This document shows, piece after piece, positions 16,270-21,669 of a stretch of DNA of 64,000 nucleotides; position 1 is the first letter of the stretch, and each line of letters begins with the position of its first letter. The notes beneath the pieces were generated by a model. The model was not told the origin of the DNA, did not search any database, and saw only the letters and a list, made by a program, of their open reading frames with translations. The stretch is from assembly GCF_015209595.1 (NCBI RefSeq), contig NZ_JADEYS010000007.1, positions 62,001 through 126,000 of the forward strand. The letters are read 5' to 3'. This DNA comes from Pontibacterium sinense (GTDB lineage Bacteria; Pseudomonadota; Gammaproteobacteria; Pseudomonadales; Balneatricaceae). Made by a program: the position numbers and the translations under genes.

Positions 16270-16809
16270 CTAAATACCGAGCTTTTTTATCACATCTTTC
16301 TTGAATAGAAGCGACTCATTGTCGTCCGGAATTTCGGCGGCCAGCTTATCCAGTGCGGCTTCGAGGTTCAGCACGGAGTTCAGGGTATCTTCACATATAA
16401 ACCCAGCCACCGGACCGATGTATTCTGCCAGACAGTCTTCCAAGATCGATTTTTGTGCATCACTGCACTCGAATACCGGCTCGGGTGTAACGTCTTTGGG
16501 GATCTCTTTAGGCGCAAGATCGGCCAGTGTTTTGATGATCTCATGGGTCGGTGGCAAAGGCGTATGTTGGTCAGTCAGCATGCCTTCCTGGAACTGGTGG
16601 CGTGCATTGCTGATATCAAACATGGCATCCAGTGCTTCGATGCCATGTTTGTTGAAGTAGTAGATGTAGTTGATCTCCCCACCTTCGATGATGACATGGG
16701 CAGAGCGATTACAATCGGTGGAGATAAACAAACTGCCGCTGACTTGCTTTCGGCACAGTTGTTTAATCTCCTCTACGACCTGGCTAAAAGGCAGATAATG
16801 CTGTGACAT
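16270..16809 (-). CDS. Small cytosolic protein, DUF4388/DUF8082-like, paired with Cache-HAMP protein
   Basis: A soluble 179-residue protein. The N-terminal half (about 5-90) reads like the DUF4388 type of domain: SGSLFISTDCNRSAHVIIEGGEINYIYY has the alternating strands and glycine turns of that group. The C-terminal half (about 110-165) has SILEDCLAEYIGPVAGFICED, which I associate with the DUF8082 type. Both are guesses from memory of family patterns. The start ATG 16809 lies 6 nt after the stop of the upstream Cache-HAMP gene, so the two are one transcription unit. A plausible role is the cytoplasmic partner of that receptor, which lacks its own output domain. No enzymatic motif is seen. Confidence 0.75.
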   Translation of the reverse strand: MSQHYLPFSQVVEEIKQLCRKQVSGSLFISTDCNRSAHVIIEGGEINYIYYFNKHGIEALDAMFDISNARHQFQEGMLTDQHTPLPPTHEIIKTLADLAPKEIPKDVTPEPVFECSDAQKSILEDCLAEYIGPVAGFICEDTLNSVLNLEAALDKLAAEIPDDNESLLFKKDVIKKLGI

Positions 16810-16815
16810 AGCAGG

Positions 16816-17883
16816 TTACCTTTCTCGTAGTCGTTCGATTGTAATATGCAGGCTGGTATTCATGCGCTTGATCGCTTTTGCCAGCGCGCCTATTTCGTCC
16901 TCGCGTTCGGTGCCATCGATATCCCCATCTAACTTGCCACGGCTGATTCCGTCTGCGATGACAGTTAGTTTGGCAATCGGGTTGAGCACCAGCTGTCCCA
17001 TCATGATGTAGAGCACCAGAGAGGCAATGATTGCACTGGCAATAGCACCCATGATCGCGTTCTGGCTCAGAGTGTAGGCTTCTGCCATCACTTTCTCTTT
17101 CTCCAGTACCACTCCGATCATCCAGTTGCTGCCGGATAACCCTCGCAGACGACGGTAACTGGTCATCACGGTGTTATCGCCAATCTCCAGCTCTTGCAAT
17201 TCGGAACTCAAGCGGGGCTGCTTACCGGTAAAGAGTGCATTGATCGATTTTCCGTTCAGGCTGGAATTAGGGTGACTGATGATGTCCCCTTTGGAGTTGA
17301 GCAGAAAGGCGTAACCGGTATCGTTAAAGTGCAGGGTATTGACCGCCTCTGACACGGTTTTTAGGCTGAGATCGCCACCGAAGGCTCCTTTAAACTGACG
17401 ACCGTCGTAAATGCCTGCAACCGCTGAAATCAGGATGTCGTTGGTGGCTGAGTCAGCATAAGGGTCCGTTAGGATCGCTCGGTTGTGGTTACGTGCGCGG
17501 TCATACCAAGGGCGTTCGCGGGCATCCCAGTTTTCACCCGGATTCCAGTCCTGATCGTTAGATATCGGTTTACCATCGGTATTCAGACCGCCAAAAACAA
17601 GAATGAACTCTTTCTGCAGGAGCGGGCGATTCATGGTGTTCTGAATAGTCGTCTGGCTAAAGTCGTCGGCGATCGTTTCTGACATCATATTGATGATTGC
17701 CAGTTTGCCGTTCAGCCAGTTGGTGATTTGGTGTGAAAGCGCTACGGTGGCTTCGTTGATACGGTTTTCGGTACGTTCGTAAAGCGCATTTTGCACGGTG
17801 TGGTATTGGGTCCACGCGAACAGGGAAAATGCAATCATGATCACGGCGGAAGTCGCCAGTGGGACTTTATGTGAGATTTTCAA
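16816..17883 (-). CDS. dCache-HAMP membrane sensor without output domain
   Basis: 355 residues built like the front half of a methyl-accepting chemotaxis protein: membrane helix (about 8-28), periplasmic double-Cache domain (about 35-270; WDARERPWYDRA, DPYADSATNDILIS, GDLSLKTVSEAV, GYAFLLNSKGDIISHP), second helix (about 275-300) and a HAMP domain (about 300-352) ending ITIERLRER-stop. The signalling coiled coil normally following HAMP is absent. The DNA after the stop runs straight into the next gene without a remnant of it, so this looks like a designed short receptor rather than a truncation. The start is TTG 17883; no ATG fits the signal-anchor. DPYAD-type Cache domains often bind amino acids. 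Its partner is probably the next gene. Confidence 0.85.
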   Translation of the reverse strand: MKISHKVPLATSAVIMIAFSLFAWTQYHTVQNALYERTENRINEATVALSHQITNWLNGKLAIINMMSETIADDFSQTTIQNTMNRPLLQKEFILVFGGLNTDGKPISNDQDWNPGENWDARERPWYDRARNHNRAILTDPYADSATNDILISAVAGIYDGRQFKGAFGGDLSLKTVSEAVNTLHFNDTGYAFLLNSKGDIISHPNSSLNGKSINALFTGKQPRLSSELQELEIGDNTVMTSYRRLRGLSGSNWMIGVVLEKEKVMAEAYTLSQNAIMGAIASAIIASLVLYIMMGQLVLNPIAKLTVIADGISRGKLDGDIDGTEREDEIGALAKAIKRMNTSLHITIERLRER

Positions 17884-18225: not shown

Positions 18226-19752
18226 TCAGTCGGTTGTTATCACATATTGATTTGATTGATGGGATGCAACAGATATTGGACCTGTGACCGTTGGGCTTGC
18301 ATAGCGATAGGGTTGCCCCGTTTGTTTCGCTTCATACATCGCGGCATCTGCTGTCGCGAGCAATTGCTCTGCACAACTGCATTGATCAGGATACAGTGTG
18401 ATACCGATGCTGGCGCTGACAGACACCGTCTGCTCACCGATATCAATCGGTGCCTCGATGACTTTTTGCAAACACTGGATCACCTTATCGGATTCGTGCT
18501 GGCCGTGAATGGCTGGCACTATAATGACAAACTCGTCGCCCCCGTAGCGTGCAATCGTATCCGTCATGCGCAGGGTGTTTTTCAGGCGATTTGCGATCGT
18601 AATCAGCAGTGTGTCGCCTGCTTCATGTCCCAACGTGTCATTGATGGGTTTAAAGCCATTCAGATCGATAAAAAACAGTGCCAGCGATCGACCATTGCGA
18701 TCAGTGTGCGCGACCTCCAACTCTAAACGATCATAAAATACACGTCGGTTGGCAAGGCCTGTGAGGGCATCGTGATTGGCCAGATCTGCCAGCTCTCGTT
18801 CTCTATCTCGATGATGGCTGATATCAATGACAGTGGTTAAGTAGAGTAACCGGTCGTCCAGATAAAACTCTTTTTCATGCAGCTCGATAGCAAAGTGGGT
18901 GCCGTTGCTACGACGTCCAAACCAGCCGTCCTCTGATGGGTGGAAAATGGCATCGCGTTTAAGGATTGTTAGGTCCTGCTGACTGTATCCAAAAGCCTCT
19001 CGGCACAGGGCGTTAGCCATACAGACCTGTCCACCTTCATCGATAATCAATAAGCAGGATGAGGTGTTATCCAAAAGCTCAGATAGACGCTTAATCAACT
19101 GTCCGGAATGCTGACTGCTTTTCCGGAATAGACGAATAATATGTGCAAAGTTAAACAATGCGAGCAAGAACGTGAAAAACTGTGCCTGCCTTAGGCGTGA
19201 TGTTTTCTCGCCCGACATATCCTCAATCCGGGTCGTCAGTTGATTCATTAGTGTGAGGATTGCTCGATTATTGGCTTCGAGGGAAGATTTCAAGGCTGTA
19301 ATTGTCGCCGGAGAGTTATCTCCCTGAATGAAGCGTTCAGCCATAGGCTTCAGATTCGATAACGCCTGTTCAGTGGTCTCTACAATGCCTAACACTTCGG
19401 TGTCTTCGAAGGCGATGAATGGAATCGGTTTATCCCGGGTATCTGTGACCTGCCCACCGGTTTTAAATGCAAACAGGGTATTGGTGAACAGACGATACAC
19501 CTCGATAAACTCTTGTCGGTAAGCCGCCTGATTGGTGTTATTCGCTTGGTGTAGTTGCAGAGAGGCTTTGGTGAGTTGTTGCGATAACATGCGCTGACGT
19601 CCGGCGATGTTGATTGCGAGTGCATCGGCCTCAACCTCTTCGGTAATCTGTAAATTAATGCCAAGGATCGCAAAATCCAGTAGAAGGAAAATACAGATAG
19701 CAATAAAGAGTGAACGTCTATTGCTGTGCGGCGCACGAGTAAGCAGATTCAT
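18226..19752 (-). CDS. Membrane diguanylate cyclase with PilJ/NarX-type sensor domain
   Basis: Synthesises cyclic di-GMP. 508 residues: membrane helix (about 13-35), a periplasmic four-helix sensor of the type IV pilus/NarX group (about 36-180, with ALAINIAGRQRMLSQQLTK), second helix (about 190-210), a PAS domain (about 215-325) and a GGDEF domain (about 335-495). The active site GGDEF is intact and preceded by the RMTD inhibitory site (RMTD-TIARY-GGDEF). The NIAGRQRM motif is shared with sensors such as NarX and PilJ, so a small anion or pilus signal is possible. Start ATG 19752 with GGAATCAGG upstream. Single gene with its own flanking regions. Confidence 0.92.
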   Translation of the reverse strand: MNLLTRAPHSNRRSLFIAICIFLLLDFAILGINLQITEEVEADALAINIAGRQRMLSQQLTKASLQLHQANNTNQAAYRQEFIEVYRLFTNTLFAFKTGGQVTDTRDKPIPFIAFEDTEVLGIVETTEQALSNLKPMAERFIQGDNSPATITALKSSLEANNRAILTLMNQLTTRIEDMSGEKTSRLRQAQFFTFLLALFNFAHIIRLFRKSSQHSGQLIKRLSELLDNTSSCLLIIDEGGQVCMANALCREAFGYSQQDLTILKRDAIFHPSEDGWFGRRSNGTHFAIELHEKEFYLDDRLLYLTTVIDISHHRDRERELADLANHDALTGLANRRVFYDRLELEVAHTDRNGRSLALFFIDLNGFKPINDTLGHEAGDTLLITIANRLKNTLRMTDTIARYGGDEFVIIVPAIHGQHESDKVIQCLQKVIEAPIDIGEQTVSVSASIGITLYPDQCSCAEQLLATADAAMYEAKQTGQPYRYASPTVTGPISVASHQSNQYVITTD

Positions 19753-19961: not shown

Positions 19962-21428
19962 TCAGGCAGCTTCCGCTTCTTTATCCGTATAGGTTGCAGC
20001 GATATCGATAAAGGTCTGCTCCACCGCCAAAAACGCCTCAATGACCGCAGGATCAAAGTGGCTGCCATTCCCTTCCAGAATAATCGAGCGGGCTTTGTCG
20101 TGGGAAAATGCAGGCTTATACACCCGCTTCGAAGTGAGTGCATCATAGACATCGGCTAATGCCATCAGGCGGCCGGAGATCGGAATTTCTTCTCCTTTGA
20201 GACCATTTGGATACCCTCGGCCATCCCACTTTTCGTGATGGGTCAGACTGATTTCGCGTGCGATCTGCAGGAAGGAGTTACTGCCAAGCTGAGCTTCTGC
20301 CACCTGCAGCGCATCGGCACCGATCTGAGCGTGTCCCTTCATGATTTCGAACTCTTCGTCGGTCAGTTTACCGGGTTTCAGAAGAATGCTGTCCGGGATG
20401 CCCACTTTGCCAACATCGTGTAAGGGGGCTGACTTGTGGAGCAGGTCGATGGTGTCAGCGTCGAGCTCTGCACGGTATTTTTCCTGAGTACTTAAGTGCT
20501 CAGCCAGTACACGGACATAGTTTTGCGTACGCAGGATATGGCCACCGGTTTCGTTATCACGGGTTTCTGCCAGACTGGCAAGCCCCAAAATACTGGCATC
20601 TCGGGTGATGCTCAGTTCTCGGGTGCGTTCTGCCAATGCGTTAATCATCTGGTTAGTATGCAGGGCCATCAGACCAAATTCATCATTACTGGTCACCGGT
20701 ACCTGTACACTCAGTTCTCCACGGGATACTTGTGCCAGTGTTTGATTTTCGGCGGTGATAAAGAGCTTAAGATTGCGAGAGTAGCCGATAATAATCGCCA
20801 GGATGTAAAGCATCATCGTGCCGATGACAAAGACAATTTCGCCCAGAATATAACGTTGAGAGGTTTTCAGTGGGATACTGTCGCCGGTATGGACTAACCA
20901 CTCCAGATCTTTATTGATGACCAGAAAAACGACGCCGATCACTGCGATCGCACAGATGGCTGCAAACCAGACAAATTTCTGTGTTAGTGGATACGGGTTA
21001 TCATCCGGTGTGAGTTGCTGATCTGAGTCGCGCAGCATCTGAGCCAGCTTGAACTCACGAAACAGTGCCAGTTCACAGGCGATCAGGTAGCCAAGTACCG
21101 TCATTCCAACGATCACTTTGCCTCCGCTTTCCAGCGGAAAACCATGCATTAGCCAGTTATACAGCCCCAGTAGCGCCCCGAAAATCAGAAACAGTGAAAG
21201 GTCTAATTTGAACTGACTATTAACCTGCTGTTTGTACGGTAGTTGGTTTAGACGCTTTTCCAGTGTGACGCGAATTGCGCCCTGTGCACAGAACGCCACC
21301 AAAATAGGGATCAGCAGTTGCGCAGTGGTCAGGGAGTCAAGAAAAGGACAAACCTGAATACTGTAGACTGAAAATAGAATCAGTGCTGTCAGATAATGGA
21401 ATGAGGTGCGTCTTACGATTGCCTGCAT
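19962..21428 (-). CDS. Membrane HD-GYP phosphodiesterase
   Basis: Probable c-di-GMP hydrolase. About 488 residues from ATG 21428 (AGAGGG about 12 nt upstream); in-frame starts up to 21548 exist, so the N-terminus is uncertain. The N-terminal half has about six hydrophobic helices, followed by a HAMP-like linker (about 220-285) and the HD-GYP domain (about 300-480). Metal and substrate motifs are present: HDVGK, HAQIGADAL, THHEKWDGRGYPNGL and ALADVYDALTSKR. The GYP triad is complete, predicting activity. It stands opposite the PAS-GGDEF gene at 21670, sharing a 240-bp divergent promoter region. Confidence 0.9.
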   Translation of the reverse strand: MQAIVRRTSFHYLTALILFSVYSIQVCPFLDSLTTAQLLIPILVAFCAQGAIRVTLEKRLNQLPYKQQVNSQFKLDLSLFLIFGALLGLYNWLMHGFPLESGGKVIVGMTVLGYLIACELALFREFKLAQMLRDSDQQLTPDDNPYPLTQKFVWFAAICAIAVIGVVFLVINKDLEWLVHTGDSIPLKTSQRYILGEIVFVIGTMMLYILAIIIGYSRNLKLFITAENQTLAQVSRGELSVQVPVTSNDEFGLMALHTNQMINALAERTRELSITRDASILGLASLAETRDNETGGHILRTQNYVRVLAEHLSTQEKYRAELDADTIDLLHKSAPLHDVGKVGIPDSILLKPGKLTDEEFEIMKGHAQIGADALQVAEAQLGSNSFLQIAREISLTHHEKWDGRGYPNGLKGEEIPISGRLMALADVYDALTSKRVYKPAFSHDKARSIILEGNGSHFDPAVIEAFLAVEQTFIDIAATYTDKEAEAA

Positions 21429-21669
21429 GATGTTTTTGAACCCTCTGCTGTGCACTTCTGTCCGCTGTAACATCCCGGACTCTATCACGCTTAATTTCCA
21501 AACCAAGAAGTAAGTTATAGATTTAAATACAGAAAAGTAAAATGCCACATGTCATTCTGGATGAAATCGGAGAATAGATCAGAGAAAGCGGAGTTCAGGA
21601 TCCTTAAGGTTGGATGTTTCTCCAGATATCCGTTAAGTTCAGGGAACGTGTCGTAATGAGTAATTACCA

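Follow-up and report, generated by a model that had tools for sequence, protein, structure and literature searches.

Gene content of the receptor locus

The window analysed here is a stretch of 64,000 nt from Pontibacterium sinense (GCF_015209595.1, NZ_JADEYS010000007.1:62,001-126,000), and all coordinates count from its first letter. It encodes a two-gene unit (16270-17883) consisting of a putative output-less transmembrane receptor and a small soluble partner protein, P0002 (Table 1). The original prediction had placed both genes here and had described a receptor that halts just after HAMP, lies 6 nt from the next gene and retains no chemotaxis signalling domain, all of which was borne out. 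The membrane helices of the receptor were read directly from the sequence. A Pfam scan identified neither a signalling domain of methyl-accepting chemotaxis proteins (MCPs) nor an output domain of any other kind in the receptor, whose open reading frame continues for 14 residues past the HAMP match and then reaches its stop codon. An AAAGG motif lies 9 nt ahead of the ATG of the partner gene, within the last codons of the receptor gene, and together with the short gap suggests possible translational coupling of the two genes.

Table 1. Predicted features of the receptor and partner genes in the window.
Feature	Position	Strand	Details
Output-less receptor, dCache_1 + predicted membrane helices + HAMP + 14-residue tail	16816..17883	-	355 aa, TTG start
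dCache_1 sensor, MCP-sensor-related	17107..17763	-	residues 41-259, E 1.4e-24, over Pfam cut-off
HAMP, sole cytosolic domain of the receptor	16861..16998	-	residues 296-341, E 2.1e-6, over Pfam cut-off
Intergenic gap of 6 nt, receptor stop codon and AAAGG (16819-16823) in the last codons of the receptor	16810..16823	-	sequence
Soluble partner P0002, PATAN-like N-terminal part + STAC-like (YIGP) C-terminal domain	16270..16809	-	179 aa
PATAN/DUF4388-like part, presumed output	16516..16809	-	residues 1-98; low-confidence model, sub-cut-off homologue matches
STAC-like (YIGP) domain, presumed HAMP-docking module	16273..16479	-	residues 111-179, YIGPVA at 130-135

P0002 itself has no Pfam or NCBIfam match at E<=1, DUF4388 (PF14332) included, and three of its homologues match PF14332 with 16.7-18.4 bits, below the cut-off of 25. 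A low-confidence structure model of its N-terminal part contains a helix, three strands and further helices, a predicted order that resembles PATAN/DUF4388 domains as their layout is generally given, although P0002 does not reach the Pfam cut-off of this family. PATAN proteins elsewhere act as regulators of type IV pili or of protein assemblies. The partner had been predicted to be DUF4388/DUF8082-like; the DUF4388 likeness holds for the N-terminal half only, and DUF8082 does not appear among the matches listed by the Pfam scans. The last ~65 residues of the partner constitute the YIGP domain, for which no Pfam or NCBIfam model matched.

Conservation in Pontibacterium and genomic neighbourhood

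Pontibacterium granulatum A-1 (L037/L011) encodes the same pair, with equal receptor length and an equal 6-nt gap. The receptors are 83% and the partners 64% identical, and the orthologous receptor gene (L037:4927-5994) starts with GTG at the residue matching the TTG start in the window. The flanks are also alike in both species, including HD-GYP, GGDEF, LysE and AraC genes (labels transferred from the Pfam scan of the window). Between the two species, pN/pS amounts to 0.127 for the whole receptor, 0.167 for its TM2-HAMP-tail region and 0.324 for the partner, with synonymous sites saturated. Full-length P0002 was identified in 2 of 96 genomes (own genome included), namely those of P. sinense and P. 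granulatum, and is absent from the congeners G001, G003 and G004 (the last 86% complete) among these 96. P. granulatum was also the sole match in one genome-contig scan, and no relative was found on viral contigs. On plasmids, neither P0002 nor the partner protein of L142 had a match; the cyclase of L111 matched eight plasmid records, aligned over the cyclase part alone.

Two c-di-GMP genes lie near the pair in the window, encoding PilJ-GGDEF (18226-19752) and MASE10-HD-GYP (19962-21548) proteins, and both kinds recur in P. granulatum. The original prediction had pointed to this neighbourhood, and such genes are indeed present; a functional link is not supported, as regular expressions for GGDEF and HD-GYP motifs (EAL not covered) returned nothing near five other PATAN-type pairs, and it was rejected on these grounds. 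Nothing beyond the Pontibacterium neighbourhood ties the partner to c-di-GMP. An open reading frame with a GGEEF motif is located near the ACT-like pair L175.

The YIGP domain is paired with HAMP-terminal receptors

Genes with a YIGP domain were collected by querying with either the partner protein or its YIGP domain; HAMP was never used as a query. A full-length profile (A1) had matches in either half in 19 of 390 genomes of the order, a domain profile (A5) in 31 of 369 genomes of the class, and profile A7 in 5 of 398 genomes of the phylum and 10 of 194 of the order, in genome draws that overlap. The census contains all YIGP matches except a contig-edge fragment (G120:C130), and also leaves out L058, whose partner has a PATAN half and an LGPMG motif yet is missed by the YIGP profile. 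It comprises 59 YIGP genes at 57 loci, counting the window and P. granulatum and with two loci in some genomes. Across 64 aligned copies the domain has the motif L..Y(I/V)GP.A together with IP and F; the G and P are invariant and the A is present in 90% or more.

Same-strand receptors that end 7-27 aa after HAMP are located near 54 of the 59 YIGP genes, a count that takes no account of shared descent. The census loci are not independent, since 39 of the 54 paired genes encode kinases, many of them evidently of one operon type. The receptor gene is upstream in 43 pairs and downstream in 11, and adjacency thus survives a reversal of gene order. Gaps range from -4 to 48 nt in 47 of the 54 pairs and from 105 to 508 nt in four, two of which involve the second effectors in L114 and L116; three larger overlaps are put down to over-long start calls. 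Five YIGP genes lack a HAMP neighbour, of which L118, L131 and L139 are at or near contig ends and L130 and L177 are interior. Conservation of the pair, proposed earlier as a check, is therefore seen in the P. granulatum orthologues, in five diverged PATAN-type pairs besides those of the window and P. granulatum, and in the census as a whole, and it supports the idea in the original prediction of a split sensor whose HAMP communicates with a separate protein.

The reverse comparison gave the same association. Only 2 of the 48 HAMP matches in the P. sinense genome have a tail shorter than 120 aa (7 and 14), and both of these short-tailed receptors adjoin the two YIGP genes of the genome; the other 46 extend for at least 120 aa or past the sequence stretch examined. 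Furthermore, among the matches listed for PF11845 (Tll0287 family) in 185 genomes of the class, all 12 intact HAMP-terminal receptors (frames of 295-325 aa) have a YIGP neighbour, all 12 genomes being already in the YIGP census. Two fragmentary receptors, G437:C82 (cut by the contig end) and G589 (in-frame stop), also have a YIGP neighbour. The 16 further listed matches (frames of 260-482 aa) include no HAMP-terminal receptor.

Five relatives contain the PATAN half only. They represent three independent sets, L010/L014 and L012/L013 being orthologue pairs, and no HAMP open reading frame was identified in the flanks examined, which exceed ~1.5 kb per side at L032/L073 only. A candidate role of the PATAN half as the receptor binder was rejected, because these flanks of the PATAN-only relatives showed no HAMP open reading frame and because YIGP genes without PATAN have a receptor. 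In the PATAN-only proteins of L010, L012, L013, L014 and L032, a C-terminal YRGQ or YRGR motif replaces the YIGP domain. DUF4278 matches in L012, L013 and L014 are under the Pfam cut-off.

Sensor and output repertoire

Among the scanned proteins, no parts are constant other than the HAMP end and the YIGP domain. The sensors of the scanned receptors include dCache_1 (window, L135, L138), HK_sensor_dom_bact (L140, L141, L176) and a Tll0287-like haem Cache (split receptors of 18 genomes checked), and those of L015 and L058 are weakly Cache-like. At L134/L259 (G589:C153), the Tll0287-HAMP receptor gene upstream of an ACT-like YIGP protein contains an in-frame stop.

The outputs are similarly diverse. 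Ser/Thr kinases nearly always carry two YIGP copies and class III cyclases one or two, with Guanylate_cyc over the cut-off in L111, L114, L116 and L123 and slightly below it in L115 and L131. PATAN-like outputs were identified in the window, L037, L135, L138, L140 and L142, and also in L058 without a scoring YIGP domain. Roadblock-like outputs are encoded next to a GTPase gene at L141, L176 and L177; these loci have GTPase Pfam matches and one sub-cut-off roadblock match, which falls in the L141 GTPase, and the putative roadblock and MglA-like identities are our reading of the sequences. The ACT-like outputs of L134 and L175 are likewise putative, with one sub-cut-off Pfam match in L134 and none in L175. 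L114 and L116 each contain one HAMP-terminal receptor gene between genes for a two-YIGP kinase and a two-YIGP cyclase, possibly one sensor with two outputs. At L141, located on contig C24 of the P. sinense genome, four consecutive genes encode two GTPases and two roadblock-like proteins; L177 encodes a roadblock-like YIGP protein and a GTPase without a receptor.

Resemblance of the YIGP domain to STAC

STAC domains are characterized by the motif LGPx(x)A (PMC4834066), which P0002 contains as YIGPVA with I replacing L. The genetic coupling of STAC to HAMP-terminal receptors is mirrored by the 54 receptor-associated YIGP genes. An AlphaFold2 model of the YIGP domain alone (two sequences, pLDDT 89) consists of three helices (15-41, 47-55 and 61-75), the first of which holds the GP, compared with four helices arranged as two hairpins in STAC. 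When this model was searched against 350,542 PDB chains with Foldseek, both chains of the Archaeoglobus fulgidus STAC protein Af1502 (5A1Q) ranked first and second, with E values of 1.7-1.8. VIA aligned the model with Af1502 over 60 residues (Z 5.2, rmsd 3.1), with a KIX domain at Z 5.3, and the A7 sequence profile retrieved Af1502 (5a1q) at E 0.61 as the fifth of 7 matches, aligned at the IGPIAK motif. The full-length profile of three sequences (A3) did not retrieve Af1502. When the whole-protein model was used, the best 50 rows of Foldseek and of VIA did not include Af1502; the best Foldseek rows were mostly actin-like, and VIA placed first a KIX domain, aligned to the C-terminal part. No single match of the YIGP domain to Af1502 is significant. 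Taken together, the motif, the weak fold and profile matches and the gene context indicate that the YIGP domain quite probably belongs to STAC. Fusions of STAC to SLC5 transporters were sought in 37 relatives, where none of the frames listed had a CbrA-like length, and four candidates together contained a single GP..A match, within the membrane part of a transporter.

Mosaic sequence and probable origin of the receptor

The P. sinense genome also encodes an intact MCP (L077:4012-5892) with MCPsignal, dCache_1 and HAMP domains over the Pfam cut-offs, which is 54% identical to the receptor overall. Segments across residues 1-268 are 53-73% identical, and identity drops to 25-29% over residues 269-341. 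The comparison with the split receptor of L058 gave the reverse pattern, with 14-22% over residues 1-296 and 56% over 297-341. In a set of 47 other HAMPs of the genome and 53 partner-type HAMPs, which leaves out those of MCPs in other genomes, the 20 best matches of the window HAMP were all of the partner type. Furthermore, a partner-type HAMP profile built without Pontibacterium receptors ranked the two short-tailed HAMPs of the genome first and second of 48. The receptor thus has a mosaic sequence, and the simplest reading is that it looks like a natural chimera, in which an MCP-type sensor was joined to the HAMP of a split receptor.

The similarity to MCPs could alternatively reflect a decayed chemoreceptor that has lost its signalling domain and stands beside an unrelated gene. 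Such an origin would agree with the MCP-length sensor homologues of the genus, which are 54-57% identical and include the one of P. sinense that has an MCP signalling domain; these homologues are sited on other contigs. However, P. granulatum keeps the pair, the receptor length, the 6-nt gap and the flanks, which speaks against a decayed MCP. The pN/pS values are low, the HAMP is not shared with the two aligned MCP homologues and is thus a different domain and not the remainder of a truncation behind the MCP HAMP, and the same gene arrangement recurs with other sensors in other genera. We consider decay barely credible and have rejected it.

Proposed mechanism and alternative functions

The two genes likely encode a split receptor, in which the HAMP end of the membrane protein would dock onto the STAC-like domain of the partner and thereby couple the sensor to a PATAN-like output. 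No output is fused to the receptor, and YIGP genes recur beside HAMP-terminal receptors. The HAMP end and the STAC-like domain are constant across the 54 pairs, and the simplest reading is that these two touch. We infer docking, the direction of signalling, homodimerization and the role of the PATAN-like part, as follows. Within the inner membrane, the receptor would form a dCache-HAMP homodimer that binds a periplasmic ligand, and the signal would pass through TM2 into HAMP, whose C-terminal helices and short tail form the presumed receptor terminus. The partner may sit on this terminus with its STAC-like domain, so that a rearrangement of HAMP would alter the seating of this domain and hence the attached output, which in the window pair would be the PATAN-like N-terminal part. 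As a speculation, kinases with two STAC-like copies might bind the receptor dimer one-to-one and effectors with a single copy two-to-two.

The pairing statistics fit recruitment as well as switching, and the docked partner could simply tether the effector to the membrane, as an anchor or adaptor, and not switch in response to ligand. Deletion of STAC from CbrA and CrbS, which is reported to cause no obvious difference in growth (PMC5715377), would also agree with a passive role. Against this, the receptors retain HAMP, a signal-relay domain needless for anchoring (although HAMP also served to recognise them), and contain recognised sensor domains of several kinds, and we regard an anchor function as unlikely. 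When STAC received its name, a role in the regulation of solute transport was suggested for it, and the STAC-like domain could likewise serve transport, with the HAMP receptor as one among several partners. SLC5 transporters are joined to kinases by published STAC domains, and transport genes abound at Af1503-like loci (PMC4834066). Between ~11.8 and 23.3 kb of the window, transport is represented by the opposite-strand genes of a LysE-type exporter and of a TonB-dependent receptor alone, and a transport role appears highly improbable here.

The proposed docking may extend beyond this pair, and our confidence in the wider proposal is slightly better than even. The STAC-like domain could be a general plug for HAMP, by which any sensor that ends in HAMP and a short tail might be paired with any soluble effector bearing one or two STAC-like domains. 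New receptors would arise when sensors are swapped onto HAMP, as the window receptor suggests, a single receptor may control two effectors (L114, L116), and the same module could supply the output that Af1503 and output-less haem-Cache receptors lack. Bacterial transmembrane signalling would thereby gain a modular split architecture, and a candidate cytosolic partner would be at hand for haem-Cache receptors ending at HAMP. With STAC-like domains fused to enzymes that can be measured, the effector of Af1503 and the role of STAC become directly testable.

Comparison with known systems

Af1503 is a widely used model of HAMP structure. The closest precedent for the window pair is Af1503/Af1502 of the archaeon A. 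fulgidus (5A1Q; PMC4834066). Archaeal Af1503-like receptors have HAMP as their sole cytosolic part, a trait that is shared by the window receptor, and are often coupled to STAC proteins of 60-90 residues; the gene of Af1502 is translationally coupled to that of Af1503, which has no recognisable effector (PMC4834066). Both systems thus combine a HAMP-only cytosolic part with a coupled small gene, whose product contains the (L/I)GPx(x)A motif in a domain that is small and helical. Contrastingly, Af1502 stands alone, is 68 residues long and has been proposed to act in solute transport (PMC4834066), whereas the proteobacterial STAC-like domain forms one protein with a kinase, a cyclase or a PATAN-like, roadblock-like or ACT-like part.

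STAC has been described as stand-alone or fused to SLC5 (PMC5715377). In the SLC5-STAC histidine kinases CbrA and CrbS, it is flanked by a signal source in the membrane and an output in the cytosol (PMC13022988, PMC5715377, PMC9100948). The likeness to the window pair, drawn here from their description, is limited in that they unite STAC and a transporter in one polypeptide and have no HAMP receptor. The role of STAC is referred to as unknown or unclear in these papers, one of which proposes a coupling element.

The sCache_heme (Tll0287/DUF3365) NO sensors (PMC12889525) have the same sensor as the split receptors of the 18 genomes mentioned above. One of them, the NO-binding haem-Cache protein WP_033902098 of Pseudomonas azotoformans, has two TM helices, HAMP and a mass of 34.5 kDa (PMC12889525); judged from this stated size, it appears to end at HAMP and to be as large as an output-less receptor. 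For its NO-sensor proteins, the main text of that study mentions no operon, partner or adjacent gene. A search without a positive control returned no haem-Cache receptor match in 148 genomes of one family.

In a literature search by titles and the beginnings of abstracts, no entry described a bacterial receptor that ends at HAMP and is paired with a kinase, cyclase or PATAN protein bearing STAC. This assessment of novelty takes the content of Korycinski 2015 on bacterial stand-alone STAC from citing papers. The original prediction had called the module undescribed, which does not hold for the basic arrangement in view of the archaeal precedent (PMC4834066) and stands for the bacterial effector fusions, of which no description was found. 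The combination of a HAMP-terminal receptor with a STAC protein is therefore of a known kind, and its bacterial variant, with STAC fused to diverse effectors, seems to be new.
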